Assembly (NCBI GenBank): GCA_038396605.1
Contig: CP121690.1
Location: forward strand, 1,830,500-1,894,499
Direction: 5' to 3'
DNA: 64,000 nt
DNA from: Eubacteriales bacterium mix99
GTDB lineage: Bacteria > Bacillota > Clostridia > Caldicoprobacterales > DTU083
A model generated the notes under the pieces. The model saw only the letters and a list, made by a program, of their open reading frames with translations, was not told the DNA's origin and did no database searches. Positions 44,891-63,638 of the stretch are shown piece after piece. Each line of letters opens with the position of its first letter. Position 1 is the first letter of the stretch. A program made the position numbers and the translations under genes.

Positions 44891-46195
44891 ATGCCAAACA
44901 AACTGCTTGTTCTTTCTGCGGACGGGTTGGTGAAAGAGGATGTGGATGCACTGCGATCCATGAAAAACTTTCGGAAGTATTTTTCCCGGGCCAGCGGCAT
45001 TGAACGGGTACGCTCCATCTATCCAACAATCACGTATCCCTGCCATACTACCATGTGTACCGGAGTCTGGCCGGAAAAGCACGGTGTCTGCGGCAATCTT
45101 CAGATGATGCCGGGAAGCAAAAAGAAGCCATGGAAATGGTTTCGAACCGATAATCTTTGGCCGGATGACATCTTTTTTGCGGCAAAGCGCAGAGGACTGA
45201 CCACCGGGGCAGTATTCTGGCCTGCGACCGGAAATCATCCTGCCATCGATTATCTGGTTGATGAGTACTGGCCTCAGGCAATAAACGATCCGCTGCCAGG
45301 GGTCTTTCGACGTTCCGGTTCATCGGAGGAGGTTCTGTGTGCCATTGAACACAGCTACCAGAATGTTCCTTTGCACAGGCACCCGGAGACCACGGAATTC
45401 ATTATGCGCTGCGCAGTGGACCTGATTGATACCTTTCAGCCGGATGTCCTTTTCCTGCATCCGGCCGATGTAGATGCTGCCCGGCATCAAAACGGAGTGT
45501 TCAACGATCGGGTGGATGTGGCGGTAGCCGCCACAGACGGATATATCGGTATGGTGATGGAGGCACTGGACCGTCATGGATTGATCCCGGAAACCAATGT
45601 GGTACTGACCAGCGATCATGGACTCATTGATGTGAAACAGATCGTTAATGTAAACGTACGGCTGGCGGAAGCGGGGCTCCTGGATGTGAGTGAAGGCGGG
45701 AATCTGATCGGATGGCGCGCCTATTGCCAGTCCGGCGGTACAAGCGCGCTCGTCTATTTGAATGAGGATGTTGGACCGGAGGGATACGATCGTACTTACT
45801 CGGTTCTGAAGGAAATGAGGGAGGATCCGATCTGCGGCATCGGGCGTGTTTTCACGGAAGAAGAGTGCCGGGCTGAACAGCATTTTGGGGGAGAATTTTC
45901 CTTTGTGTTGGAAACGGACGGCTCCACTGCATTTGGAGATGATCTTTGCGGACCGCTGATGAAACAATACGACATAACCGACTACCGATATGGCCGTGCC
46001 ACACATGGACATCTGCCGGATAAGGGACCTCAGCCGGTATTCTGGTGCATTGGCCCCGATTTTCGTGAGAACGTTATTTTGCCGGAAGGACGGCTGATTG
46101 ATCAGGCGCCCACCTATGCAAAGATACTGGGGACAGAATTGAAGGACTGCGATGGCCGTCCATTGACAGAACTCTTACGCCGGGGAATATGTTAA
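44891..46195 (+). CDS. Alkaline phosphatase superfamily phosphodiesterase
   Basis: 434 residues, no signal peptide. Nucleotide pyrophosphatase/phosphodiesterase-type metal and nucleophile motifs: LSADGL near the start, PTITYPCHTTMCTGVWPEKHG with the threonine nucleophile region, DVLFLHPADVDAARHQNG, TSDHGLIDV and RATHGHLPD. These enzymes cleave phosphodiesters or phosphonate/sulfate esters in the cytoplasm. It is followed by a DeoR regulator and a glycerol-1-phosphate dehydrogenase, which suggests a glycerophospho-type diester as substrate (inference). Confidence 0.9.
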   Translation: MPNKLLVLSADGLVKEDVDALRSMKNFRKYFSRASGIERVRSIYPTITYPCHTTMCTGVWPEKHGVCGNLQMMPGSKKKPWKWFRTDNLWPDDIFFAAKRRGLTTGAVFWPATGNHPAIDYLVDEYWPQAINDPLPGVFRRSGSSEEVLCAIEHSYQNVPLHRHPETTEFIMRCAVDLIDTFQPDVLFLHPADVDAARHQNGVFNDRVDVAVAATDGYIGMVMEALDRHGLIPETNVVLTSDHGLIDVKQIVNVNVRLAEAGLLDVSEGGNLIGWRAYCQSGGTSALVYLNEDVGPEGYDRTYSVLKEMREDPICGIGRVFTEEECRAEQHFGGEFSFVLETDGSTAFGDDLCGPLMKQYDITDYRYGRATHGHLPDKGPQPVFWCIGPDFRENVILPEGRLIDQAPTYAKILGTELKDCDGRPLTELLRRGIC

Positions 46196-46279
46196 TGAGT
46201 TACAGTCTCCGGGATTTCCTGTCGTCGCATCGGAAATGACGAAGGGATAGATATCGAAGGGAAGAAAGGAAAGTACAGT

Positions 46280-47032
46280 ATGCACGATCGAAAATCTGAG
46301 ATTATAGATTTGGTGAATCAGCGTGGTCAGGTCACGTTCAAGGAGATAAGGGATCTCTTTCCGGACCTGTCTGAAATGACCATACGACGCGATCTGGAAG
46401 CATTGGATCGGGAACATGCCCTGGTACGTGTCCACGGAGGCGCCAGGTCCATCGGTACCATTGTCGGATCGGAAGATCTGTTCAGAAATCGCGCTGTCTC
46501 CCATATGGAAGAAAAAAGTACAATAGCACAGAAAGCACTGCACTATATCATACCGGGTTACATCATATTTTTCGATTCCGGTTCCACTGTTGCGGAGCTG
46601 GCCAGAATCCTGCCGGATGAGCAAATGATTATTTTCACCGGAAATATTTCGGCTGCATTGGAGATGGCCCGTCTGAAAAAACCTGTGATCCATATTATAG
46701 GCGGGCGGCTGGACGTGCAGAGTCTGTGTGTCAGCGATAGCTGCAGTCTTGATATGCTGAATGATGTGAATATCAATTATGCTTTCTTTGGCGTAACCGG
46801 CTATTCGGAGCGACGTGGTTTCACCTGTGGCAAGGAAGATGAATACCGGCTGAAAAAGATGGTGATCGGCAAAAGCGATAAGGTCATTGTTCTGATGGAT
46901 TCCTCCAAGGCCGGCATATCCTCTGTTTACACCTATGCCATGGACGAAGACATTGATATGGTGATTTCAGATGGCAACCTATCACCCAAATTATTGGAAC
47001 GATTCGGACAAAATGGAGTTGAAGTCCTGTAA
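46280..47032 (+). CDS. DeoR family transcriptional regulator
   Basis: 250 residues. N-terminal HTH (RGQVTFKEIRDLFPDLSEMT, then IRRDLEALD) and the DeoR sensor domain with FFDSGSTVAELARIL and FFGVTGYSERRGFTCGKEDE. The sensor binds phosphorylated sugars. It sits between the phosphodiesterase and the glycerol-1-phosphate dehydrogenase and probably controls both. Confidence 0.93.
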   Translation: MHDRKSEIIDLVNQRGQVTFKEIRDLFPDLSEMTIRRDLEALDREHALVRVHGGARSIGTIVGSEDLFRNRAVSHMEEKSTIAQKALHYIIPGYIIFFDSGSTVAELARILPDEQMIIFTGNISAALEMARLKKPVIHIIGGRLDVQSLCVSDSCSLDMLNDVNINYAFFGVTGYSERRGFTCGKEDEYRLKKMVIGKSDKVIVLMDSSKAGISSVYTYAMDEDIDMVISDGNLSPKLLERFGQNGVEVL

Positions 47033-47177
47033 CCCTGCTATTTTAGCCGCTTGATATCTGGATTATGAGAGATCAGCCGGTGAACAGGGGAAAAATGAGA
47101 TGACGCGAATACGAGTATCATATGTTGGAAAATCAGTGGAAATAAAAAATCAAAACGGAAAGGGGTAAAGGAATAAG

Positions 47178-48464
47178 ATGGATTTCAACAAACTGCTTGG
47201 CAAAAAGATCGTATGCAGATGCGGCATGACGCATTATTGCCCCATCCGGCATGTTATCATTGAAAAGAATGCCATATCCAAACTGAGCGGATTATTGGAC
47301 GGATACCAAAATGTCGTTCTGGTCGCTGACGAGAATACATATGCGGTTTGTGGCCACAGGACGGAAGCACAGATTGGGGCAAGACTGGAAAACAAGGTCG
47401 TCTATAGCGGGGAAGGATTCCTGATTCCGGATGAGTCCTCCATCACCGCTCTCAATACAGCGGTAAGCGGGAAAACAGACCTGATGGTTGGTATCGGTTC
47501 CGGTGTCATCAACGACCTGTGCAAATATATTGGATCACAGCGCGGACTTCCTTACTATATTGTGGCAACCGCCCCCTCTATGGACGGTTATGCATCCGTA
47601 GGCGCGGCGCTGGTGATTGGCGGGATGAAGGTAAACCGTCCTACCGGTACAGCGGAAGCGATCATTGCGGACACGGAGGTGCTTCGCAATGCGCCGCTGG
47701 AGATGATACAATCCGGTTACGGGGATATCATCGGCAAATATTCATGCCTGAATGACTGGAAATTTGCCAGACTGGTCCGGGGGGAGGCCTTCTGTCCATG
47801 GGTTCATGATTTTATCCAGGAAACAGTTCAGCATGTGGCCGGACTGGGCAAAAAGCTTCTGAAGCGGGACGGAGAGAGCATAAAAACGTTGATGGAAGCT
47901 TTGGTATGCACAGGCATCGCAATGAGTTATATCGGGAACTCCCGTCCGGCATCCGGAAGTGAGCATCACCTGTCGCACTTTTTCGAGATCACGGGAATCC
48001 TTGACAAAAAACCTTATTTTCTTCATGGGAGAAACGTTGCCTATTCCACTGTGATCACCCAACGTTTACGGGAAGAGCTTTTAGCCCTTGATAATCCAGT
48101 CTGTCGGTCCTTTGACCGGGACAAATGGGAAAGGGAAATTCACAGACTGTATACCACCGCAGCCAGGAATGTCATTGACCTGCAGAGAAAGGCAGGATGG
48201 TACGAATTGGACTGGCAGTCCTTGTATACCGATAAATGGGCGGAGATACAAGAGCTGTTCGCCGGGATGCCCTCCTCGGTATCCCTGGAACACCTCCTGA
48301 ATACGGTGGGACTGTCCATGGATGAGTTTATCCGGGAGTATGGCGAAGCGAAAATCCGCGATGCAGCCGTTTATGCCAAGGATCTGAAAAACAGATATAC
48401 TGTTCTCTGGCTATACTGGTCCCTGATCGGGGAGGACGGCAGGCTTTCATCTGATTCCGGGTGA
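47178..48464 (+). CDS. egsA: sn-glycerol-1-phosphate dehydrogenase (AraM/EgsA-like)
   Basis: 428 residues of the iron-alcohol-dehydrogenase fold. NAD-binding GIGSGVINDLCKYIG and substrate/metal segments TAPSMDGYASVGAALV, SGSEHHLSHFFE and HGRNVAYST are those of bacterial AraM. The enzyme interconverts dihydroxyacetone phosphate and sn-glycerol-1-phosphate with NAD(P)H. Bacterial versions serve rare glycerol-1-phosphate ethers or catabolism of related sugar-alcohol phosphates. AAAGGGGTAAAGGA precedes the ATG. Confidence 0.88.
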   Translation: MDFNKLLGKKIVCRCGMTHYCPIRHVIIEKNAISKLSGLLDGYQNVVLVADENTYAVCGHRTEAQIGARLENKVVYSGEGFLIPDESSITALNTAVSGKTDLMVGIGSGVINDLCKYIGSQRGLPYYIVATAPSMDGYASVGAALVIGGMKVNRPTGTAEAIIADTEVLRNAPLEMIQSGYGDIIGKYSCLNDWKFARLVRGEAFCPWVHDFIQETVQHVAGLGKKLLKRDGESIKTLMEALVCTGIAMSYIGNSRPASGSEHHLSHFFEITGILDKKPYFLHGRNVAYSTVITQRLREELLALDNPVCRSFDRDKWEREIHRLYTTAARNVIDLQRKAGWYELDWQSLYTDKWAEIQELFAGMPSSVSLEHLLNTVGLSMDEFIREYGEAKIRDAAVYAKDLKNRYTVLWLYWSLIGEDGRLSSDSG

Positions 48465-50957: not shown

Positions 50958-50986
50958 TTGATAATTTATTACAGTTATGATATGAT
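50958..50986 (+). promoter_or_regulatory. Promoter of the DUF6259/metallo-beta-lactamase operon
   Basis: TTGATA (50958-50963), 17 bases, TATGAT (50981-50986), about 80 bases before the first start codon. The surrounding 50764-50957 is AT-rich with no other feature. Confidence 0.6.
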
Positions 50987-51064: not shown

Positions 51065-53140
51065 ATGTTCCTGCTGAAAAATGAATTTCTGGAAGCGAAG
51101 TTTAATCAAAAGGGTGCGCTCATCTATCTAAAGGACACCAAAAATAATACAGACAACGTAATCTCCTGCCCTGCGGAAAACAGTTTCAAACTTGTCTTTC
51201 AGAAAGGAGATAATTGGGAGAATACGGTATTAGCAGGAGAACAATCCTTTCAGACAAGGCAAAGTGGCAGCAGACTGGAGTTTTCTGCTGATCGGGTATC
51301 TGCCGGAGGCCATGTATTTGAAATCAGCATAAAACTGATTGTTACGCTCAGGGAAGAGGATCTGTTATTCGATGCGGAGATAATCAATTGCGAAGAAGCT
51401 CTTGTCACGGATTTTGAATATCCGAATATCGGTGCGATAAAGTCCTTGTCCGGCGGCCAACCGGATTTGTTATGGCCGAATCAAAGCGGAGAAAAATGTA
51501 TCCGTATCGGTGAATATCTGTCAAATAAGAAAGACAGCAGGGAAGCACATGCAAACGTTCTGGCATTGAGATACCCGGGCGCCCGTTCCATGGCAGGCAG
51601 CATGCAGTGGATGGCTCTTGTGGAGAAGGATCAGACGTTATATTTTGCCGGGCATGACGCGGAGTTCTATACATCTGAGCTGCTTGTTCAGGGCAGCCGG
51701 AAAGACAGGGGAGCCGTCACCCTTACCATGGAAAAGATGCCATTCATAAAAAAAGGAGAGGTATGGGATGCTCCGCTTACCCTGATAAAGCTGTATACCG
51801 GATCCTGGCATCATGGTGCACAGGAATACCGGGCCTGGGCACAGACATGGCGTCCGACTCATGAGAAACCCCGTTGGGTCAAGGACATGATGGGATACTT
51901 TCTGGTGATCAACAAACAGCAATATGGCAGCGAAATGTGGCATTACAGGGAACTGCCGGAACTTTATGAGCTTGCCGTTGCCCATGGCTGTGACACTTTG
52001 GGGCTTTTTGGATGGTATGACAGCGGACATGACAATCAATATCCGGATCTTGAAGTGAGTGAGACTCTGGGCGGGGGAAAACGTCTGAAGGAAAACATCA
52101 AATCCGTTCAGAAAGCCGGCGGACATGTCACGCTTTATCAGCAGGGGCATCTGATGGATCCGACTGCGGACTACTATAAAAACGGCGGCTGGCAGTATGA
52201 ATCCAGAAGCCGGTGGAATACGCCATATCTGGAGGAATACAGCAAGTCTCATGAAAGCTTTTTTCAGATGCATCATTCCAACAAAGTTTTTGCGATATCC
52301 TGTCCTTCCTGTCCGGAATGGCAGGAACTGATGGAGGAAAAAACAGAGTTTGCGGCGGGTTTTGGCCCGGATGGAGTGTTGTTTGACCAGATCGGAGGGA
52401 TGTTCGCCTATCCCTGCTTCAATGAAAAGCACCCGCATGCCAAAGGGAAGCCTTCCCTTTCCATGTCCCAAGGAAGAATCGGGCTTCTGAAACGTATTCA
52501 GAAGCGTACGAAGGAACTCAACAAAGAGTTTGCTTTTTTTACCGAACACATCACAGATGTATATTCCGCATATGTTGATTGCCTTCACGGGATGAACCTT
52601 ACTCCATCGGGGGAGGGGAGCCGAATGCATACAGAGAGCGATAAACCGGGCTTTATTAATTATCCTGAGCTTTTCCGCTACTGCTTCCCGGATGTGATCA
52701 TGACCATACGCAATCCCAATCCTTTTATTCTTCCCCGTGCTGCAAATTTTGCCTTTACTTTTGGTCTTCGTTACGAAATGGAGCTGCGATTCTGGAAGGA
52801 TAAGGATGATATTCTGGCAGATACCTACGCCGAGTATCGTGAGTACGCAGGAAAAGTTACCGATCTTCGCAAAAAATACTGGGATGTATTGGGATATGGT
52901 GAGTTTATGGATGAAACTCCGCTTGTCAATCCGAACCCTGCTGTTCTCGCAAAAGCATTTGTTTGCGGCGATAAACTTGCCCTGACCATGTGGAACGACA
53001 GTAACGGATGCGCGGACCTTAAAATTGAAGTGAAAGGATATCGGCTTATTGAGGTATCCACGATTGAGGATACATGGGAAAGTGTGCCTGCCAGCTTGTT
53101 GCCGCAGCAGATTGCAATAGCTCTTTATGAAAAAATGTGA
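51065..53140 (+). CDS. DUF6259-type putative glycosidase, paralogue 1
   Basis: 691 residues from ATG 51065, eight bases after AAGGGGG. No signal peptide, so cytoplasmic. Residues 1-270 form a beta-sandwich ([20 protein letters not shown]), followed by a TIM barrel in which [12 protein letters not shown] and [19 protein letters not shown] hold the likely acidic catalytic pair, then a small C-terminal beta domain ending [13 protein letters not shown]. The layout recalls clan GH-D/GH31-like alpha-glycosidases. Paralogue 2 at 56324 shares about half its residues by eye. The substrate is unknown. Confidence 0.72.
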
Positions 53141-53169
53141 GGAGATCGAATCGAAAGGAAGGGATCAGG

Positions 53170-56100
53170 ATGAAACGGTTTCACAGTATCTTAACTGTTA
53201 TCGTAATGGCATCCATGTTATTGGCATTGTTTCCTGCAGCTGCATTTGCGCAGGAGGAGATACTATCGGGAGTTACCGAAAATCCAAAAAATCATTATGT
53301 CTATGCAAACGGGAATCCGATTGTGATTAAAGAAACGGAAGAAACGATTGAAGGCAATGTTGTTCAGAATACCTATATTTATGATGTACATGGTGAGACA
53401 AAACTTTTTGATAAACCCCTTGAAGAAGTCCCGTATGTGTTTGGAGGTGCTCAAACTGCCACTGTGGCCAATACAAAAGTGGTAATGGAAAGCGGGAGAA
53501 TCGGAACCCGCACCAGGACTGGAAAAGGATATTTGTATGGCGGTGGAGGAGGAGATGTGGAAGGGACCGCGGAGGTAATTGTCCGGGGAGGGTTTGTTGG
53601 ATCCGTTTATGGCTGTGGAGCTGGTACGACGGGAAGGGTAAAGATAGAATACAACAATACTGTCTCCGATCTTCAGGCATTGGTGGTCGGCGGACAAGGG
53701 AAGATCAGAGGCAATGTTGACATTGTGCTGAACGATCCCAATCTGACCACCCTTTGCGGTGGTGGGAACGGTACATCAGATACTTATGTGGGCGGAAATG
53801 TGAATATCACAATCCGCGGAGGCAGTATCGACAATTTATACGGCGGCTGTGTCCACGGATATGTAAACGGGATGGCTCATATCACCATAGAAGGCAGCAC
53901 GAAAGTCAACAAGGCGTTTCATCCAATGAGAAAGATTTACAATGATCTGGTATATGGAGGAGCTTATGTGTATGTGCCGGAAAATTTTGATACGGACCGG
54001 ATCAAGACGGTTTATGAAGATGGGAAGCCAAACAATGAAATCCGTATTTTCAAAAATGGGACGCAGGTTTATGGGCCTTGCCCGGCTACAGTGGACAGCA
54101 ACGGGAATGTCTATGCAAATGGCACTCCTGTGACAATCAAGGCAGGAAAAGCGGACGGAAAAACCTATTTGTATGATCAAATGGGAGTCAACAAGCTTTT
54201 GGAGGATCCGATTGATCACGGTACCGTCTACGGCGGCAGTGTTGCGGATGATGTTGACCAGACCAGTATCGTCATGGAAAGCGGTGTGGTCTCCGCTGTC
54301 TACGGAGGTGGTTGGAATGGCAATGTGACCGGCAATTCTTCTATCGTTTTGAATGGCGGCGTGGCAGATCATGTTTTTGGAAGCAGTCGGAACGGAACGG
54401 TAAACGGCACGGCTTACATAAAAGTGTCCGAAGGGATGAAAATAGCGGAACGAATTGCTTCCGACAGTGGGAAAGGCAGGTCCCGCGCTTCGGTTCTCTG
54501 GGTTGCCCAAAGTTTTGATATGAGCAAACTCCAGCCGGGTGAAAATACCCGGATTTTCAAGGGTAGTTTCGAAGTGGTGGATCCGGAGATTGCAATACCG
54601 AATACCGTTACAGTCCGGGGGAGTTCTGTGTTCGCAAACGGAATTCCGATTGTTATCCGAAAGGACAGGATAAACGGCAGGACATTTGTTTATGATGCAT
54701 CGGGAAGGAAAAGGCTTCTGACCGCGGATGTCAATGGCAAGGAAATTTATGGCGGAAGTTATCAGGGCATTGTGAACCGTACCAGCGTGACAATGGAAAG
54801 CGGTACGGTATCGCGCATTTACGGCGGCGGCTATCAGGGGGGCGTCTCGGATACTGCAGGGATTACCATTACCGGCGGTGATGTTACGGAAGTGATTTAC
54901 GGAGGATCCTTTGACGGAGATGTAGGCAGCACCTCCATATATGTAAGCGGTCCGTATGTGGCGAAAGGGGTTAATGCGGGCAGCAGAAATGGCTGTGTAC
55001 GGGGCGATACAAAAGTGGTACTGGTGGACAGTGTTGCAAAAGGGCTGTATGCCGGTACCGGCGGAGACGGACGGTTTGGGTGTCCCGGTTCGGATGTCAT
55101 GGGAAATGCTTCCTATACTCTGGTTGGCGGTATGGCGGAATCCATATACGGAGGCTGTAAAACCGGTGTGATTAAGGGAACATCCACCATAACGCTGGAA
55201 GGCCAGATTGTCGTGAAAAAGGTTCTGGATGCTCAGGGAAAAGGCGGTGTATCTGGCGGAGCTACTGTTACAATACCTGAGAATTTCATTTATATGGATA
55301 AGATCGAACAGGGAAAAGGGATCGATATACAACTGACTGCTCCGGTGCCGAAGAATACTGTCCCCGGGATCGGAAAACGTACGGAGGAGGTGCTTTCCAC
55401 CGAAGGGGAAGAAGGAAAACTGGTATTCCGTTTTATCGATCTTCCTCCTGCGGAAGGACAAATGATGGGCAGATCCGGAGAGGCGATATTCATCCACTTG
55501 CCCAATGGCGAAACCATGCTGGTGGATGCAGGAGAGACATTCACGGCTGAACATCTTGTTGATGTGCTGAAACGAATGCATATATCCAGGATTGATCATC
55601 TGGTCGCATCCCACTACCACTCGGATCATATCGGCGGCATGACCCGTATACTCGATGAATTTGATGTTGATACCTTGTATAAGCCAGGCTTTGATGTGAA
55701 GATTGACAAAGACTATTATACGGATTTAAAAGCGAGAATTGACGATCCCAACCGGCCCTTTATTGTAAAGGATTTATGGCGCGGCGATCAGCTGGAAATT
55801 GGCGGCCTGCACATTGAGGTACTTCATCCGCAGAACAGTGAAAGCATCAAAGACGTTATGAGTGGGAATGCCTCCACCGAGGATCACAACAACAATTCCA
55901 TAGTGATGAAAATGACTTTTGGGGAGAATACAGCTTTGCTGACCGGTGACATCTATATGAGTGCAGAATTGGAACTGCTGAAAGAGTTCGGAGCGGAAAG
56001 TCTGAAAGTGGATTTGCTTAAGGTGCCGCATCACGGAGATACGACGTCCAGCGGTCCGGAGTTTGTGGCTGCAGTCCGGCCTGAAATCGCAGTAATGGAT

Positions 56101-56343
56101 CATTTCAGCGATACACTGATTGTCAATAACCGATACAAGGCAATCGGGGCCGATACATATGTTACGGGGAAAGACGGGATTGTAAAAGTTTCTTTTGACG
56201 GCAGGAAACATTCCGCCGAAGTACTGACGGAATACTTTGAAAAACCTGTTATTGTGAAGGATGATGAGGATTCCCCGGAAAATGCCAGGGGAGGACAGGA
56301 TCGAAAAGGAAGGGAGACTGCTTGTGTATATCCTGCAGAATGA
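53170..56343 (+). CDS. Secreted repeat protein with C-terminal metallo-beta-lactamase domain
   Basis: 1057 residues from ATG 53170, after AAAGGAAGGGATCAGG. Residues 1-28 are a signal peptide ending AAAFA. Three modules follow, beginning near residues 44, 314 and 487 (VYANGNPIVI, VYANGTPVTI, VFANGIPIVI). Each runs YxYD, then VYGGS, a VxMESG strand and glycine-rich turns like VYGGGWNGNVTG that suggest a beta-solenoid. From about residue 750 comes a ComEC-like metallo-beta-lactamase domain with metal motif HYHSDH at 815-820, then NNNSIVMKM, LLTGDIY and KVPHHGD. There is no sortase or S-layer anchor. It overlaps the next gene by 20 bases. Confidence 0.82.
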   Translation: MKRFHSILTVIVMASMLLALFPAAAFAQEEILSGVTENPKNHYVYANGNPIVIKETEETIEGNVVQNTYIYDVHGETKLFDKPLEEVPYVFGGAQTATVANTKVVMESGRIGTRTRTGKGYLYGGGGGDVEGTAEVIVRGGFVGSVYGCGAGTTGRVKIEYNNTVSDLQALVVGGQGKIRGNVDIVLNDPNLTTLCGGGNGTSDTYVGGNVNITIRGGSIDNLYGGCVHGYVNGMAHITIEGSTKVNKAFHPMRKIYNDLVYGGAYVYVPENFDTDRIKTVYEDGKPNNEIRIFKNGTQVYGPCPATVDSNGNVYANGTPVTIKAGKADGKTYLYDQMGVNKLLEDPIDHGTVYGGSVADDVDQTSIVMESGVVSAVYGGGWNGNVTGNSSIVLNGGVADHVFGSSRNGTVNGTAYIKVSEGMKIAERIASDSGKGRSRASVLWVAQSFDMSKLQPGENTRIFKGSFEVVDPEIAIPNTVTVRGSSVFANGIPIVIRKDRINGRTFVYDASGRKRLLTADVNGKEIYGGSYQGIVNRTSVTMESGTVSRIYGGGYQGGVSDTAGITITGGDVTEVIYGGSFDGDVGSTSIYVSGPYVAKGVNAGSRNGCVRGDTKVVLVDSVAKGLYAGTGGDGRFGCPGSDVMGNASYTLVGGMAESIYGGCKTGVIKGTSTITLEGQIVVKKVLDAQGKGGVSGGATVTIPENFIYMDKIEQGKGIDIQLTAPVPKNTVPGIGKRTEEVLSTEGEEGKLVFRFIDLPPAEGQMMGRSGEAIFIHLPNGETMLVDAGETFTAEHLVDVLKRMHISRIDHLVASHYHSDHIGGMTRILDEFDVDTLYKPGFDVKIDKDYYTDLKARIDDPNRPFIVKDLWRGDQLEIGGLHIEVLHPQNSESIKDVMSGNASTEDHNNNSIVMKMTFGENTALLTGDIYMSAELELLKEFGAESLKVDLLKVPHHGDTTSSGPEFVAAVRPEIAVMDHFSDTLIVNNRYKAIGADTYVTGKDGIVKVSFDGRKHSAEVLTEYFEKPVIVKDDEDSPENARGGQDRKGRETACVYPAE

Positions 56344-58402
56344 GTACCTGAAGGTAAAGTTTGATGAAAGAGCGAGGCTTGTCTATTTAAGAAATAACAA
56401 AGGCGGCAGGGGAAATATCCTTGCATCCCCTGCCGAATACGGTTTCAAAATGGTATTCCGTAGGGGCCAGGATTGGGAGAAAACAGCTTTTTTAAAGGAA
56501 CGTTCCTTTACTGTGATACAAGATGGAAATCGGGTTGAATTTACGGCTGACCGACTGCAAACCCGGGATGGTATGGCGGATATCGGGTTGAAGCTCATTG
56601 TGCAGTTAAAAGATGAGGATCTGACATTTGATGCGGAGATCAACAGCAAGGAAGACGGGCCGATTACCGACTTTGAATATCCGGTCATAGGGGAAATCCA
56701 GTCCCTTGCAGGCGGAAAGCCGGCTTTGCTTTGGCCAAATCAAAGCGGTGAGAAATATAACAATATCGGTAAATACCTTGCCGATAAAAAGCCGACCAGA
56801 ATGCCGTCCAGCCAGTCCTTATCCATTACCTGGCCGGGCCCGGCAAGCATGCAGTGGATGGCACTGGTCGACAAAAGGGAAGTCCTTTATTTTGCCGGTC
56901 ATGATGCCGATTTTCATGCCACAGAGCTTCGCGCTGCCGGGGGCGGCGAAAATCCTGGCGCCGTTACACTGGTAATGAATAAAATGCCATTTGTCAGGAA
57001 AGGAGAACGATGGACAGGTCCGACGTCGCTGCTGAAACTGTATACCGGCACCTGGCATCATGGGGCGCAGGATTACATCGATTGGTCGAAAACCTGGCGG
57101 CCGGTTCGTGAGAAACCGCAGTGGGTAAAGAATATGACAGGATATTTCATTGTGATCTGCAAGCAGCAGTACGGCGCGGAACTATGGCGATATCAGAAAC
57201 TGCCAAAACTTTATGAGTTGGCTCTTGCCCATGGCTGTGACACACTGGGGGTCTACGGGTGGCAGGAAGGCGGCCATGACAACCGGTATCCGGAGACAAG
57301 GGTGAGTGAATCCCTGGGCGGCGCTCAGGTTCTCCGGGATAACATCAAAACAGTACAGGACAGGGGAGGACATGTTACTTTATATGTACAGGGCCGTTTG
57401 ATGGATATTGCCACCGATTTCTATCAGAACGGAGGCTTTCGGTTTGAGTGCAAAAACCGATGGGGAATGCCCTGTTACGAAGAGTACAACAAGGCACAGA
57501 ACAGTTCATTTTTAAAGGATTATTCCCATAAAGTCTTTTCCGTTGCCTGCCCATCCTGTCCGGAATGGCGGGAATTGATGAAAGAAAAGGCGGATCTGAT
57601 TGCTTCCTTTGGCCCGGATGGCATTTTATATGACCAAATCGGAGGAATGCCGCCCCGTATCTGTTTTGATAAGAGTCATCCTCATGAGAAAGGGAAGGAA
57701 TCCCTGTCCGCAACCAAAGGAACGACGATGCTCCTGGGCGGACTTCAGGCACATATGAAAGAAATAGGTAAGAACTTTGCACTTTTTTCCGATCATATTA
57801 CCGATGTGTATTCTTCCTATGTGGATTGTCTGCACGGGATCGATTCCTATCCCGGGAGGGAAGGCAGCAGAATGGAGACCGGGATGAATCCTGAAAAGCC
57901 AGAGAAGGTGTTTTTCCCGGAGTTGTTCCGGTATTGCTTTCCGGACGTGCCGATCACTGTCTGCAATCCGTATCCTTATATCACAAAGCGCGCAGCCAAT
58001 TACGCCATTACATTCGGCTTTCTAAACGAAGTGGAGGTTCGGTATCAGGCAGACCGGGAGGATATTCTGGCAGATGCCTGGCCTGCATGTCGGGAATATG
58101 TAAAGAAAGTAACGGAACTCCGCAAAAAATATGAGGATATTCTGGGTTACGGCTGGTTTCGGGATGAATTGCCGATTCCAGGCAAAAATCCTGCGATCCT
58201 GGCAAAAGCTTTTGTCAGGGAAAACAAACTTGCAGCTGTCCTGTGGAATGATACGGATTGGGAGAGTAAAACGAATGTAGAGGTCCCGGGATATCGTCTC
58301 ACAGAGGTTTCCACTGTGAACGGGACTCTGGAGAAGCTTCCTGAAACATTGCAGCCGCAGCAGATTGCAGTGGCTCTCTATGAAAAAGAGCGACAGGGAT
58401 AG
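56324..58402 (+). CDS. DUF6259-type putative glycosidase, paralogue 2
   Basis: 692 residues. The start is GTG 56324 (VYILQNEYLKVKFD), which aligns with paralogue 1 and has GGAAGGGAG seven bases upstream, inside the end of the preceding gene. Same architecture: beta-sandwich, TIM barrel with GPDGILYDQIGG and FSDHITDVYSSYVDCLHG, and C-terminal domain ending LQPQQIAVALYEK. Here the second acidic motif is SDH rather than TEH, a possible change at a catalytic position. It ends 5 bases from the convergent RpiR gene. Confidence 0.72.
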   Translation: MYILQNEYLKVKFDERARLVYLRNNKGGRGNILASPAEYGFKMVFRRGQDWEKTAFLKERSFTVIQDGNRVEFTADRLQTRDGMADIGLKLIVQLKDEDLTFDAEINSKEDGPITDFEYPVIGEIQSLAGGKPALLWPNQSGEKYNNIGKYLADKKPTRMPSSQSLSITWPGPASMQWMALVDKREVLYFAGHDADFHATELRAAGGGENPGAVTLVMNKMPFVRKGERWTGPTSLLKLYTGTWHHGAQDYIDWSKTWRPVREKPQWVKNMTGYFIVICKQQYGAELWRYQKLPKLYELALAHGCDTLGVYGWQEGGHDNRYPETRVSESLGGAQVLRDNIKTVQDRGGHVTLYVQGRLMDIATDFYQNGGFRFECKNRWGMPCYEEYNKAQNSSFLKDYSHKVFSVACPSCPEWRELMKEKADLIASFGPDGILYDQIGGMPPRICFDKSHPHEKGKESLSATKGTTMLLGGLQAHMKEIGKNFALFSDHITDVYSSYVDCLHGIDSYPGREGSRMETGMNPEKPEKVFFPELFRYCFPDVPITVCNPYPYITKRAANYAITFGFLNEVEVRYQADREDILADAWPACREYVKKVTELRKKYEDILGYGWFRDELPIPGKNPAILAKAFVRENKLAAVLWNDTDWESKTNVEVPGYRLTEVSTVNGTLEKLPETLQPQQIAVALYEKERQG

Positions 58403-58407
58403 GGAGA

Positions 58408-59271
58408 TCATGGAGAAAAGGGTCCGATATGCTTTTTGGTGGAAACCAGTCTTGTTTTATCCAGATACCGCTTGACGGTATGATATTCATGGCTGACAAC
58501 GGAAGTATAGAGAATATCGATCACAGTCAGCTGACCAATGCGGGAGCCCATTGCCCCGCTGCGGATCAGCGGCTCAGAGGATGAGGAATACAGACGGATG
58601 TCTGCGCGCCCGGACAGCGGGTTTTTGCTGTATCGTGTGATGCTGACCATCGTTGCTTCCGTTTGCCTGACAACATCGGCGGTTTCCAGGATATCTCTGG
58701 TGTCTCCCGTATAGGAAATCAGTACCGCTACATCCCCCTGCTTCAGAGAAGTCGCGGCAAGGATCTGACTATGGGGATCGAGGCCGGACATGCTGGTTTT
58801 ATTGATACGCATAAATTTATTCTGCGCATCCAGCGCTACGATCCCCGATGTGCCGACTCCATAGAAATCCACTCTTTCGGCTGCAACGACCGCTTCCACC
58901 ACATGGGCAAGATCATCGGTATTCAACAGGGTTTGGGTATTTTCAATGGATTTGATATTGCTTATGCAGGCACGATGAATGATGGATTCAATGGAATCCC
59001 CCGGACGAACATCCTGATAAGGCACGGTATCATGCTGATTCAATGCAATGTCTGTGGAAAGGGCACGGCACAGATCCTTGTATCCGGAATAATCCGCCGA
59101 TTTACACAAACGGACGACGGAAGAAGTGCTGGTTCCGCAGGCAGCGGCAAGTTGTTCTATGGACATATTGATTACCTCTTCGGGAAAATCGACAATAAAT
59201 GCGGCAACCTGCTGTTCCTTTGGAGTCAGCGTGTTCATTAATTCTTTTAATCTCAGGCAGCAACCCGACAT
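58408..59271 (-). CDS. MurR/RpiR family transcriptional regulator
   Basis: 287 residues from ATG 59271, after GAAAGGAG. N-terminal HTH_6 (TPKEQQVAAFIVDFPEEVIN and TSTSSVVRLCKSADYSGY) and a C-terminal SIS sugar-phosphate-binding domain (RVDFYGVGTSGIVALDAQNK, VLISYTGDTRDILETADVV). Such regulators respond to phosphorylated amino or neutral sugars. Third gene after the isomerase and ROK kinase. Confidence 0.92.
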   Translation of the reverse strand: MSGCCLRLKELMNTLTPKEQQVAAFIVDFPEEVINMSIEQLAAACGTSTSSVVRLCKSADYSGYKDLCRALSTDIALNQHDTVPYQDVRPGDSIESIIHRACISNIKSIENTQTLLNTDDLAHVVEAVVAAERVDFYGVGTSGIVALDAQNKFMRINKTSMSGLDPHSQILAATSLKQGDVAVLISYTGDTRDILETADVVRQTEATMVSITRYSKNPLSGRADIRLYSSSSEPLIRSGAMGSRIGQLTVIDILYTSVVSHEYHTVKRYLDKTRLVSTKKHIGPFSP

Positions 59272-59317
59272 TTCAATGGCTCCTTTCAAAATGGTAATGC
59301 CTTCAGCTGGTTTACAG

Positions 59318-60253
59318 TTATGAGAACTGCATGGCTCTGGCTGCTCCAGGCAACGATGCATGGTCGATATCAGTTATTGCTTCAATAACCTTCAGCGTCG
59401 GGATCTCTTCCAGTATGCCGCGCAGGGCGGGAAGAAACAAATCAGCGGATTTGCAGATGCCTCCGCCCAGCAACAGGCATTCAAATCTGTTATCCCTTAT
59501 TATATCATATAATATCTCCGCCAGACAGATCCCCATACTCTCGAAGGCCTGGATGGCGTCCGTCTGTCCGGAACGTGCCAGGCTGGCTATGTCTATGACA
59601 TCCATTTCTGAATCGCCTGAAAATGCCCCATTGCAGCGACCACTGCCCTGCCTCAGTTCCATGTAATGTGAGATCAAAGCATGTCTGGACACGTAGTCTT
59701 CCGCTGCCTTTCCCCGGTATGGCATGGCATAGATGCTGATGCCGGGTCCGCCCTGATCATTTTCGTAAATCTTCCCGTCAAACATGGAAGCAAACCCCAG
59801 TCCTGTACCAAGGACTACGCCGGCTATTCGCTGATAGCGGGAGGAAAGGCCGTTTTGTGTGGCGCCCAAAAGAAAAGCGGTGGAATCATGAAGGAAATAA
59901 ACCGGGACCTTCCCGACCGCCTGTTCCAGCCAGGGCCGCATGGAAATACCGTATATGGACTGATATTTATGCCGCATCCGGCTGATTCCGGCGGGGTAAT
60001 CGAAAGGACCCGGAATGCATATACTGATTCCCTCAAGTCTCATTTTATTTTTTTGGGAAAGAGATCGGCCCCGGGAAGCCACTTCGATGTATGCGGCCTT
60101 TATTTCTTCCGCATTTCCTCCGGAATCGACGGGGATTTTGAAGAAACTGCCTTCCACCAGTCTGGCAGATTCTCCGTTTTCCCGAATGAGAGCAGCTTTC
60201 AGGAAGGTTCCTCCTGCATCGATGGCCAGAATACATTTGCTTTTATTATTCAT
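59318..60253 (-). CDS. ROK-family sugar kinase
   Basis: 311 residues. The ATP site is formed by LAIDAGGTFLKAALI and GVVLGTGLGFASMFDGKIY; FLHDSTAFLLGA holds the catalytic aspartate. The usual CxCGxxGC zinc motif of ROK proteins is absent (the region reads GGPGISIYAMPYRGKAAEDY), which is seen in some kinases. It overlaps the isomerase stop by 8 bases. The predicted role is phosphorylation of the sugar released by the glycosidases. Confidence 0.85.
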   Translation of the reverse strand: MNNKSKCILAIDAGGTFLKAALIRENGESARLVEGSFFKIPVDSGGNAEEIKAAYIEVASRGRSLSQKNKMRLEGISICIPGPFDYPAGISRMRHKYQSIYGISMRPWLEQAVGKVPVYFLHDSTAFLLGATQNGLSSRYQRIAGVVLGTGLGFASMFDGKIYENDQGGPGISIYAMPYRGKAAEDYVSRHALISHYMELRQGSGRCNGAFSGDSEMDVIDIASLARSGQTDAIQAFESMGICLAEILYDIIRDNRFECLLLGGGICKSADLFLPALRGILEEIPTLKVIEAITDIDHASLPGAARAMQFS

Positions 60254-62093
60254 TTTCGTAGCCGTCTTTCAGCAATGTCTTGTGCATGGTAACAACTCCT
60301 GCCTTCCGGTTGAGTACCTCATACGGTCCAAATCCTGCCGGGATAATAACCGTATCCAGATAATGCTGCTCAAAAAAGCGGTTTGGATCTGTCAGGGAGC
60401 GAATCAGACAGGTTTCCCCGTCTACCAGAACAAGAACATGAAACCGATCCGTTGTTTCGTCCTCGTACTTTTGATCAAATATCACATTGCGCAGGGAGAA
60501 GTATAACAGATCATGCTCTCCTGTGATAATCTCCCGATATCCGGTTCCTTCCCGAACGGTGCGTGGATTCTGAATGAGATTGGTTGTTACCCAATCCTCC
60601 CGGTAATCCCGGCGCAATACTTTATCAGCATGGCGGAGATGAATCGGACGAAGATTTCCGTCCAGATCCTTACGCAGATAATCGTACATCTTATATGTAT
60701 AGGAGCCGATGGTCAGGCTGCCGATTTCCAGTATCACCTGGTTGCGGCCGGAAGCATGAACGGTGCCGGCAGGAAGCAGAAACTGCATTCCGGGTCGGGA
60801 AGGAACGGAATGGATATAATCGTCATGTTGGAATCCCACTCCGGACTTTTCCGCTTTTTCCGCTTTTGCCAGGAATTCTTCCACATCCGCATCCTGCTTG
60901 AAGCCGCAGTATGTCTTAGCCTGTTGCCCTGCAGTCACGATATAGTAACTTTCGTCCTGGCGGCCAAATTCCCTGTTGTTCCGACGAACATATTCCTCAT
61001 CCGGATGAACCTGGATGGACATATTTCCGCTGGAATGAAACGTATCGTCATAGTTAAAGCGAATTGGGAAATATCCATTGAATTTTTTGGCTGCTTTTTC
61101 CCCCATTAGTTTTGTTCCCACTGTCTGCACAAAAGAATAAAAGGGGAACTCCAGCTCCATCTTTTCCAGGTCCGCCACAATAGAGACTTCCATTGGAATC
61201 AGATCAAATACCCAGGCACAGTTTTTCATTTCTTCCGGCAAATTGCGAATGCGCTTTACATAGAATCCGCCCCATACTCCTTCCAGATAGACAGGCCTGC
61301 AGCGAAGAGGATAGGTGATCATCGTTTCAAATAAAGCCTTCAGGGTTGATACGGGAATGAGACGGAGATTTTCCGGATGGTCTCCTGGCAGGTAATAATC
61401 AATCTCATTGTTTTGAATCAGATATCCCCTCAGTTCTGCAGCTGCGATGAAATCCACATAATAACTGCGCCGCAGCATTTCGGACGGAGATTTGCGTACC
61501 GGTTCTCCCAGATTTCCGCAGACACCGCTGCGAATATTCAAAATGGTGCGTTTTTGCGTCATATCGATGTAAAACTTCAGGTCATAGAAGGGGCGCAGGG
61601 CATCTATCAGGGAACCGTTTCCCCATACAATAAGAACATCTGCTTTTGTATTCCGGAATTCTTTGATTCCTTCTTTCATTTCTGCTATTTTCTTACTCTC
61701 CATCAGGCCCTCATACCCCTCGTGATAAAGGGAGCCATACAGCAGAACCGGATCAATCTCTCTGTCTTCCGGAAGATAGGGTAACAACTTTTGATGAAGC
61801 GCATTGCTGTCAAGGTACAGATTCGATGTGAACAGAGTTCGGACCGTCCAACCTTTTTGGGCGCATTCCATGGAAATCATTGCTGCAAATTGCTCCAAAG
61901 GTGCGCTGATGTAACCATCGATCCCAATGATGCAGGAGGATTGATTGTCTGTTCTATTCCGGATCCCGGAAAGGATTTCTTTCATGGATTCCTGCGAATC
62001 GTCGGTTATGGCCTTGCGAATTTGGGGATCAACGGTAATATGATTAACAGCGGTCGGATCGTCATATGGATATGGTTTGAACATAAAACTCAT
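60246..62093 (-). CDS. Class I mannose-6-phosphate isomerase-like protein with extra N-terminal domain
   Basis: 615 residues from ATG 62093, eight bases after TGGAGG; ordinary type I isomerases have 300-400. Residues about 55-230 resemble a uridine-kinase-like fold (SCIIGIDGYISAPLEQFAAM), but the P-loop glycine-lysine motif is lost. Residues 270-615 carry the cupin isomerase part with the metal motif MSIQVHPDEEYV and the later FLLPAGTVHASGRNQVILEI. It likely interconverts a ketose and aldose phosphate, maybe with the N-terminal domain as a sensor. First gene of the isomerase-kinase-RpiR group. Confidence 0.8.
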   Translation of the reverse strand: MSFMFKPYPYDDPTAVNHITVDPQIRKAITDDSQESMKEILSGIRNRTDNQSSCIIGIDGYISAPLEQFAAMISMECAQKGWTVRTLFTSNLYLDSNALHQKLLPYLPEDREIDPVLLYGSLYHEGYEGLMESKKIAEMKEGIKEFRNTKADVLIVWGNGSLIDALRPFYDLKFYIDMTQKRTILNIRSGVCGNLGEPVRKSPSEMLRRSYYVDFIAAAELRGYLIQNNEIDYYLPGDHPENLRLIPVSTLKALFETMITYPLRCRPVYLEGVWGGFYVKRIRNLPEEMKNCAWVFDLIPMEVSIVADLEKMELEFPFYSFVQTVGTKLMGEKAAKKFNGYFPIRFNYDDTFHSSGNMSIQVHPDEEYVRRNNREFGRQDESYYIVTAGQQAKTYCGFKQDADVEEFLAKAEKAEKSGVGFQHDDYIHSVPSRPGMQFLLPAGTVHASGRNQVILEIGSLTIGSYTYKMYDYLRKDLDGNLRPIHLRHADKVLRRDYREDWVTTNLIQNPRTVREGTGYREIITGEHDLLYFSLRNVIFDQKYEDETTDRFHVLVLVDGETCLIRSLTDPNRFFEQHYLDTVIIPAGFGPYEVLNRKAGVVTMHKTLLKDGYENE

Positions 62094-62203
62094 GTCAGAT
62101 ACCTCCAGAAAGTCACATATTTTTATACCGGATACGATCAGAAGAACGATTGCGAATGGCAGCGCAAACCGTTTTTCCTTTCTGATCGATATCGTCATTC
62201 TTT

Positions 62204-62232
62204 ACTATATATAGTTTTTCTTCCCGCGTCAA
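62204..62232 (-). promoter_or_regulatory. Promoter of the isomerase-ROK-RpiR group
   Basis: Minus strand TTGACG (62227-62232), 17 bases, TATAGT (62204-62209), giving a leader of about 105 bases. Confidence 0.65.
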
Positions 62233-62530
62233 CACAAATTATCGAAAAAACAGTTTAAAAATGATAAAATAATTTGCATTTGAGAGCTTCCATACTTTCC
62301 TGTTTTCTGATCTGTATACAGCGTGCCGAAAAGTCTGAAAATGGAAATAGGGCATATCCTTTCGAACCACTTTCTAAAAAACGCCTGCAAATACGATAAA
62401 ATGAGTACTCCTGGAAATAATGAACGTTTAAACATGCCTTGATATTTTTGGCTAAGGATTCAAAAATGACAAGGAGCATTAGCTGACTGAAAATATTTTC
62501 AAAAAATATTGGCATAATTGTAAAAAATAC

Positions 62531-62559
62531 TTGCAGGTTATTCCGGTGCATGGTATAAT
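62531..62559 (+). promoter_or_regulatory. Promoter of the ABC permease genes
   Basis: TTGCAG (62531-62536), 17 bases, TATAAT (62554-62559). Confidence 0.65.
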
Positions 62560-62675
62560 CGTTATACAGTAACAGACAGTAGATCCTATCAGGTGATAGA
62601 AGGAAAAGGAAACAAATGTCCCCGTTTTTTACGGAGTAATCCTAACCATGTATTCTATTCATTAGGGGGGTTAAC

Positions 62676-63638
62676 ATGTCCACAATGTTGCAAAGGGAAA
62701 CACGACATAGGGAAAAAGGCAGGCTGCAAAGCTTTTTTGGCTATATACGAAAGGATTATATGCTGTATCTGATGATTTTACCCGGATTGGTTTATATCCT
62801 CCTGTTTAGGTATGTACCGATGTATGGTGTGTCAATAGCATTTAAAGATTATAAGGTTACTTCTGATATCTTGTCCGCTCCCTGGGTTGGGCTGACCAAC
62901 TTTACAAACCTGTTTTCTCGCAGGGCCTTTCTCAGGGCACTGCAGAACAATATTCTGATCAGTGTTTACAAATTGGTGTTTGGATTCCCGTTTCCAATTC
63001 TGTTGTCTTTGTTGATTAACGAAATCCGGAGAAGTAGAGCCAAAAAATTTGTTCAGACTGCTGTAATCCTTCCGAATTTTGTTTCCTGGATTGTTATTTA
63101 TAGCTTGCTGTATGCCATTCTTTCCCCGAGTACCGGTGCGATTCATGGTATTGCATCGGCACTTGGTTACAAAGGGTCAATACCCAATCTGTTGACGGAC
63201 AAGGATCACTTTCAGGCAGTTATTGTAGTTTCTCATATCTGGAAGAGCGCCGGCATGGGAACGATCGTGTATCTGTCAGCGATCAGCGGCGTAGATCAAA
63301 ATTTATATGAAGCAGCGGCAATTGATGGGGCCGGTCGTTGGCGGCAGATGTGGCATATTACATTGGCTTCCATTCGTTCAACTATCGTTGTTTTGCTGTT
63401 CTTCCGTATCGGGGAAATGATGTACGCTGGCTTTGATCAAATATTTGCCATGTCCAATAATCTGGTTATTTCTGTGGCGGATATCATCGATACCTATGTT
63501 TACCGTATGGGCCTTGAGCAGAGAAAGTTTTCACTTGCCACCGCAGCAGGTCTGTTTCAATCAGCTATTGGTATGGTATTGGTATTGGCTACAAATTATA
63601 TCGCAAAGAAAATCGATCCTGAAAGCGGAATCATATAG
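62676..63638 (+). CDS. LplB/YteP-type sugar ABC transporter permease
   Basis: 320 residues with six membrane helices, opening after a basic cytoplasmic tail. Family marks: LMILPGLVYILLFRYVPMYG, IAFKDYK, and the EAA loop EAAAIDGAGRWRQMWHITL that contacts the ATPase. Proteins of this group import oligosaccharides such as rhamnogalacturonan or complex-glycan fragments. GGGGGG precedes the ATG. No binding protein lies upstream, so it should follow the second permease, past the window. Confidence 0.94.
   Translation: MSTMLQRETRHREKGRLQSFFGYIRKDYMLYLMILPGLVYILLFRYVPMYGVSIAFKDYKVTSDILSAPWVGLTNFTNLFSRRAFLRALQNNILISVYKLVFGFPFPILLSLLINEIRRSRAKKFVQTAVILPNFVSWIVIYSLLYAILSPSTGAIHGIASALGYKGSIPNLLTDKDHFQAVIVVSHIWKSAGMGTIVYLSAISGVDQNLYEAAAIDGAGRWRQMWHITLASIRSTIVVLLFFRIGEMMYAGFDQIFAMSNNLVISVADIIDTYVYRMGLEQRKFSLATAAGLFQSAIGMVLVLATNYIAKKIDPESGII

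Follow-up and report, generated by a model that had tools for sequence, protein, structure and literature searches.

A tandem pair of DUF6259 proteins flanking a secreted repeat/metallo-beta-lactamase protein in a clostridial sugar locus

Several described enzymes are close to the proteins considered here. DagB is a GH129-like 3,6-anhydro-D-galactosidase that has one catalytic residue in common with the GH129 alpha-N-acetylgalactosaminidase NagBb, Asp486 in DagB and Asp435 in NagBb (PMC5698469). The metallo-beta-lactamase (MBL) domain of ComEC is a Mn-dependent phosphodiesterase and nuclease, and differs from that of Pce by an Asp in motif II and an Asn in motif III (PMC8579336). We analyzed a run of three genes in a 64,000-nucleotide stretch of the Eubacteriales bacterium mix99 genome (the window), in which two genes for DUF6259 proteins (genes 1 and 3) flank a gene for a secreted repeat/MBL protein (gene 2). 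We explain the region, with moderate confidence, as a locus for sugar import in which an accessory secreted phosphodiesterase accompanies two GH129-like glycosidases encoded in tandem.

Fold and family of the outer proteins

Both outer proteins match DUF6259 (Pfam PF19773), with 83.5 bits for gene 1 and 83.4 bits for gene 3 against a curated cut-off of 28.7. They are 56% identical to each other, and the 3.13-Mb genome yielded no DUF6259 place beyond their genes. An AlphaFold2 model of the DUF6259 protein, built with 24 aligned sequences, reached a pLDDT of 92.6 and predicts a beta-sandwich, a TIM barrel and a C-terminal beta domain, as in the GH129/GH129-like family. When this model was compared with known structures by Foldseek, the top match was DagB (5opq, E = 4e-28), followed by GH36, GH129 and GH101 enzymes. 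VIA-align superposed it on NagBb (5wzp) with Z = 27.1 and rmsd 3.2 over 544 residues. Because alpha-amylase barrels reach Z values up to 25.7, with the barrel part alone, it is coverage of the whole length, and not Z, that sets GH129 apart.

Two residues are invariant, Asp323 (GHDN) and Asp441 (LFDQIGG; gene 1 numbering), and both are kept in both window proteins. Asp441 lies where a barrel strand ends and likely corresponds to the catalytic Asp common to NagBb and DagB. The family profile aligns with NagBb over 41 residues, at a marginal E = 0.065, pairing DUF6259 GW..GHDN.YPD with NagBb GW..GYDN.HPD. What the DUF6259 proteins share with NagBb and DagB is the full-length three-domain fold and, with NagBb, the GW..G.DN..PD motif, whereas they are 10–14% identical to these enzymes, without a significant whole-sequence match. 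We predict that they are alpha-glycosidases of the GH129/GH101/GH36 fold group, in agreement with an original prediction that had read them as glycosidase-like DUF6259 proteins without signal peptides from the window sequence. No tie to a CAZy family was found in the resources searched, and no paper in the literature searched mentions DUF6259; judged by its fold and its locus, the subfamily is a candidate for a new family of glycoside hydrolases.

No signal peptide was seen by eye in either outer protein, which makes cytoplasmic action on imported material probable. Gene 3 carries Asp490 where gene 1 and most other DUF6259 proteins carry Glu494, and the paralogues may therefore differ in specificity. 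A carrageenan-like galactan as substrate, suggested by DagB and by the weak similarity of the locus's GH16 protein to kappa-carrageenase, was not adopted, as this GH16 protein matches laminarinases better.

DUF6259 loci in other genomes

When 84,980 species genomes were scanned, 15 DUF6259 loci emerged, of which 14 were annotated (L068 was read by frame). The subfamily ranges over Clostridia, Paenibacillaceae, one Bacteroidota genome and one Lentisphaeria genome. In the annotated loci DUF6259 genes occur singly or in tandem, with two copies (L061, L066, L068) or three (L067), and sugar ATP-binding cassette (ABC) transporter genes adjoin them in most. Genes for ABC permeases and a solute-binding protein (SBP) lie near DUF6259 in L066–L068 and in the Cohnella/Paenibacillus loci L062, L063, L065 and L074.

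In L061, from a genome of the same family (G002), genes for a phosphomannose-isomerase-like (PMI-like) protein, a ROK kinase and an RpiR regulator face those for ABC permeases, an SBP and two abutting DUF6259 proteins; aldose epimerase, GH16 and a 460-aa protein of unassigned family are encoded there too. The window locus (58408–63638, continued past the window in L051 by a second permease, an SBP, GH16 and a sugar-isomerase-like protein) is closely alike in gene content and differs in gene order. Identities between the two loci are 72% for the PMI-like protein, 53% for ROK, 72% for RpiR, 73 and 78% for the permeases, 66% for the SBP, 72% for GH16 and 79% for the isomerase-like protein. The 460-aa family (L043 7554–8936, L063 3114–4547 and others) accompanies DUF6259 in G002, Cohnella and Paenibacillus; its G002 member had no match in Pfam, NCBIfam or PDB sequences.

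The trio itself was found in none of the annotated DUF6259 loci and in no genome searched other than this one. BLAST of the genes in the 14 loci against the gene 2 MBL protein gave no match, and no gene lies between the tandem DUF6259 copies of the other annotated loci. The original proposal of a three-part system had named occurrence of the trio only here as its refutation; on the genomes searched, a recurring system is therefore not supported. In a tree of DUF6259 proteins, gene 1 is nearest to copy 1 and gene 3 to copy 2 of L061, with weak support, and second copies form one supported group (97/92), a placement that fits an older ordered pair. The trio looks like such an older tandem pair that received an accessory gene between its members. 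Composition gave no support for gene 2 as a recent foreign insert, since its GC (0.47–0.49) and GC3 (0.48) agree with those of neighboring genes.

The secreted middle protein and its MBL clade

The C-terminal domain of the gene 2 protein matches Pfam Lactamase_B (E = 1e-13) and was modeled mostly at pLDDT 85–97. Its closest solved structure in VIA-align is the ComEC domain 9ic4 (Z = 30.7, 28% identity), followed by Pce (1wra, Z = 25.2) and RNase J (Z = 19). D786, H815, H817, D819, H820, N907, S910, D927, H954 and H955 are invariant in a 14-sequence alignment; as the residues conserved in relatives are all kept, we take the metal site to be intact. Motif II, HYHSDH (residues 815–820, 55612–55629), is Pce-like: the ComEC-type Asp is not there, and His817 is invariant in relatives. 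N907..S910 aligns with N..S of ComEC, but Pce has a similar N.NS, which makes the placing of motif III uncertain. Against the ComEC/Rec2 equivalog TIGR00361 the protein scored 93.9 bits (cut-off 190), with the MBL part alone aligning, and no ComEC competence membrane domain was found in it.

ComEC is the best structural and sequence match, likewise extracellular and perhaps alike in the N..S of the motif III region, whereas gene 2 has no ComEC membrane domain, keeps the second motif II His and is fused to surface repeats. With the pneumococcal teichoic acid phosphorylcholine esterase Pce/CbpE (2bib, 1wra) it has in common secretion, a modular build of MBL plus repeats, and HxHxDH. It differs in its low identity (~16–20%), in repeats that are not choline-binding, and in having the MBL domain C-terminal and the repeats N-terminal. 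A phage origin of the MBL domain was also considered and rejected: the matches to phrog_7043 and 30 phage records are all below 60% identity, and none is a close relative. This MBL type does occur in the phage tail family phrog_7043, possibly as an enzyme for a host-surface polymer.

A model built on the gene 2 domain and four relatives gave 415–484 bits on the listed members of its own set, 345 bits on a held-out member from G271, and less than 210 bits on every other MBL listed from 391 class genomes. At E 1e-70, 398 genomes of the phylum yielded no further clade members. The members in G015, G021 (two) and G043 are lipoprotein-like and are located with sugar ABC genes. Within 1.5 kb, 4/8 clade loci have an ABC permease or SBP gene, compared with 0/16 sister secreted MBL loci (Fisher p ~0.007, calculated by hand; the loci are not all independent). 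G015 has a distant DUF6259 gene on the same strand as the MBL gene and 4.5 kb from it, and in G271 (L077) the clade MBL gene lies 105 bases 5' of a glycerol-1-phosphate (G1P) dehydrogenase gene. A clade of this kind beside sugar importers suggests an unrecognized extracellular phosphodiesterase step in glycan uptake; our literature search on MBL-linked polysaccharide utilization returned nothing relevant.

Some clade copies are broken or shortened. In G021:C77 an MBL lipoprotein gene (L046 10738–12057) has a frame break between the lipoprotein start and the MBL part, for which sequencing error and a decayed copy are indistinguishable. G043 has two shortened copies, L078 9516–10001 (161 aa) and L079 7777–8217 (146 aa), beside the intact L048; the L078 copy keeps the gene 2 linker (53% identity over residues 734–796).

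The gene 2 protein begins with MKRFHSILTVIVMASMLLALFPAAAFA, a type I signal peptide without lipobox, which is followed by QEE. Each of the three modules behind it opens with V(Y/F)ANGxP(I/V)xI(K/R) and continues with YGG...V..T strands; the DNA repeat families D1, D2 and D5 fall within them. The model of this region is beta-solenoid-like at moderate quality (pLDDT mostly 60–87, several stretches below 50; pTM of the whole gene 2 model 0.47). Pfam gave no match over residues 1–770, neither to a named repeat family nor to choline-binding repeats, and relatives of the repeats were found at E <= 0.001 in 6/291 class genomes including its own, all but one of them weak. The first description of the middle protein, as one with signal peptide, three repeat modules and ComEC-like MBL domain containing HYHSDH, was confirmed; the structure prediction recommended with that description gave the ComEC MBL domain and Pce as neighbors.

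A secreted 1,729-aa protein in G261 (L133 3753–8942), with its domains read by eye, joins an MBL domain of this group to leucine-rich-type repeats and SLH-like stretches; surface-repeat/MBL fusions therefore arose more than once. This fusion and the small secreted MBL lipoproteins L044, L047 and L048 belong with gene 2 to one broad extracytoplasmic MBL group. They differ from it in having another repeat type or none, and DUF6259 is not adjacent to them (nearest 4.5 kb, in G015).

Possible functions and layout of the locus

We infer the reactions, the substrate and the tethering as follows. Oligosaccharides would enter through the sugar ABC transporter of the locus. The two cytoplasmic DUF6259 alpha-glycosidases and the intracellular GH16 would break down imported alpha-linked oligosaccharides, and the freed sugars would pass to the ROK kinase, the PMI-like protein and the isomerase-like protein. 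The gene 2 product would be exported, and its three beta-solenoid-like modules would keep it at the cell surface or close to it, where a metal-dependent phosphodiesterase of ComEC/Pce type could cut phosphodiester bonds of a polymer or remove a phospho-substituent, for example phosphoglycerol. That cut would make polymer fragments importable. Since gene 2 lies between the tandem glycosidase genes, it is probably co-transcribed with them. A phosphodiester-containing glycan, the substrate class of the original prediction, remains plausible. A more specific form, which we regard as rather unlikely, is a Gram-positive phosphoglycan-utilization locus in which an ABC-coupled surface MBL phosphodiesterase of the new clade strips or cuts the phosphodiesters of a glycopolymer, either phosphoglycerol glycan or teichoic acid, and the GH129-like DUF6259 enzymes finish the fragments in the cytoplasm. 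Both the candidate glycosidase family and the phosphodiesterase step are open to direct test with purified proteins.

Several points weigh against an import locus with an accessory phosphodiesterase. The trio occurs once only, so the MBL–glycosidase link rests on one adjacency. ABC genes are absent within 1.5 kb of the window MBL gene itself. The clade counts involve few loci, which come partly from one order and are not all independent. The DUF6259 gene of L064 has no ABC genes within 10 kb. The sequence similarity to GH129 is marginal (E = 0.065), so GH129 specificity cannot be transferred to DUF6259. Finally, the MBL fold covers many reactions; nuclease and glycopolymer esterase are equally possible.

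The strongest rival, which we still consider unlikely, is an extracellular nuclease for scavenging nutrients or phosphate, in which the repeats hold the DNA that the MBL domain cuts and the gene's position between glycosidase genes is accidental. The closest solved structure, the ComEC MBL domain, is a phosphodiesterase/nuclease (PMC8579336), but motif II reads HxHxDH as in Pce where ComEC has Asp at the second position (PMC8579336). Several clade relatives, moreover, have sugar transporters or the G1P dehydrogenase as neighbors, and none was seen next to genes for nucleotide salvage.

More doubtful still is an esterase for a glycerol-phosphate polymer (lipoteichoic acid or a phosphoglycerol-substituted glycan), which would free sn-glycerol-1-phosphate for conversion to dihydroxyacetone phosphate by the G1P-dehydrogenase-like enzyme encoded upstream (47178–48464, 4.7 kb from gene 2). 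Pce is a structural neighbor of the gene 2 MBL domain, and a G1P-dehydrogenase gene follows the clade member in L077; the window enzyme is 42% identical to that G271 dehydrogenase. It is grouped with a type I phosphodiesterase, and its relatives lie near GDPD-type phosphodiesterase genes in G015, G037 and G214 (by eye). Such neighborhoods point circumstantially to phosphodiester chemistry. The window dehydrogenase, however, is encoded in another gene group, which has its own regulator. In the other ABC-linked MBL loci that were read, no such dehydrogenase gene is next to the MBL gene, and relatives are also found beside arabinose and HAD-phosphatase genes, the AraL–AraM pattern. The subfamily as such (window gene, L124, L126, L121) recurs near type I phosphodiesterase, GDPD and MBL genes.

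A surface adhesin or S-layer-type protein with a vestigial MBL domain is improbable. Related YGG-type modules do occur in large surface proteins (L130–L132), but the metal-site residues conserved in relatives are all kept and Pfam found neither SLH nor a sortase anchor in the gene 2 protein, which speaks against the S-layer or adhesin family with an inactive metal site that had been named as a refutation of the original prediction. A defense-type MBL (Avs1a, 6A-MBL, LmuA-like) is scarcely credible: the matches are weak, below curated cut-offs where such exist and far below the NCBIfam ones, no partner genes were seen, and a secretion signal is present.

The features are collected in Table 1. 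The three plus-strand genes, with a 29-base gap between genes 1 and 2 and a 20-base overlap of genes 2 and 3, were confirmed in the sequence at their predicted coordinates. AAGGGGG precedes the start of gene 1 and GGAAGGGA that of gene 3 at GTG 56324, which was preferred to the longest-ORF start (ATG 56261, upstream in the same frame) because it aligns with the gene 1 N terminus. The proposed operon with a single promoter stands in part. There is a promoter-like site, and no terminator-like hairpins were found between the three genes; as the region does not clearly exceed shuffled sequence in its number of promoter-like and terminator-like sites, a single promoter is plausible at most.

Table 1. 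Coordinates of the three genes, their parts and their neighbors in the window
Feature	Position	Strand	Details
Type I phosphodiesterase, DeoR/GlpR-like regulator, G1P-dehydrogenase-like protein	44891..48464	+	possible functional link, apart from trio
Promoter-like site	50958..50986	+	TTGATA-17-TATGAT, extended -10, ~80 bases 5' of gene 1; pattern match alone
Gene 1, DUF6259 protein	51065..53140	+	691 aa, ATG 51065, stop 53140; sequence, Pfam
Gene 2, secreted repeat + MBL protein	53170..56343	+	1057 aa, ATG 53170, stop 56343
Type I signal peptide of gene 2	53170..53253	+	~residues 1-28, no lipobox; sequence
Three diverged repeat modules	53278..55374	+	approx. residues 37-300, 301-480, 481-735
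MBL domain	55411..56229	+	residues 748-1020: HYHSDH 815-820, N907/S910, D927, H954/H955
Gene 3, DUF6259 paralogue	56324..58402	+	692 aa, best start GTG 56324
RpiR-type regulator	58408..59361	-	part of same sugar locus, 72% identical in G002
ROK sugar kinase	59318..60253	-	
PMI-like protein	60246..62198	-	
Sugar ABC permease	62676..63638	+	

Gene 3 and the RpiR gene are convergent, with their ends 5 bases apart (58402/58408). Just past the window, at L051 11370–17566, follows another sugar ABC locus, which includes GH130-like and FAD-oxidoreductase genes.

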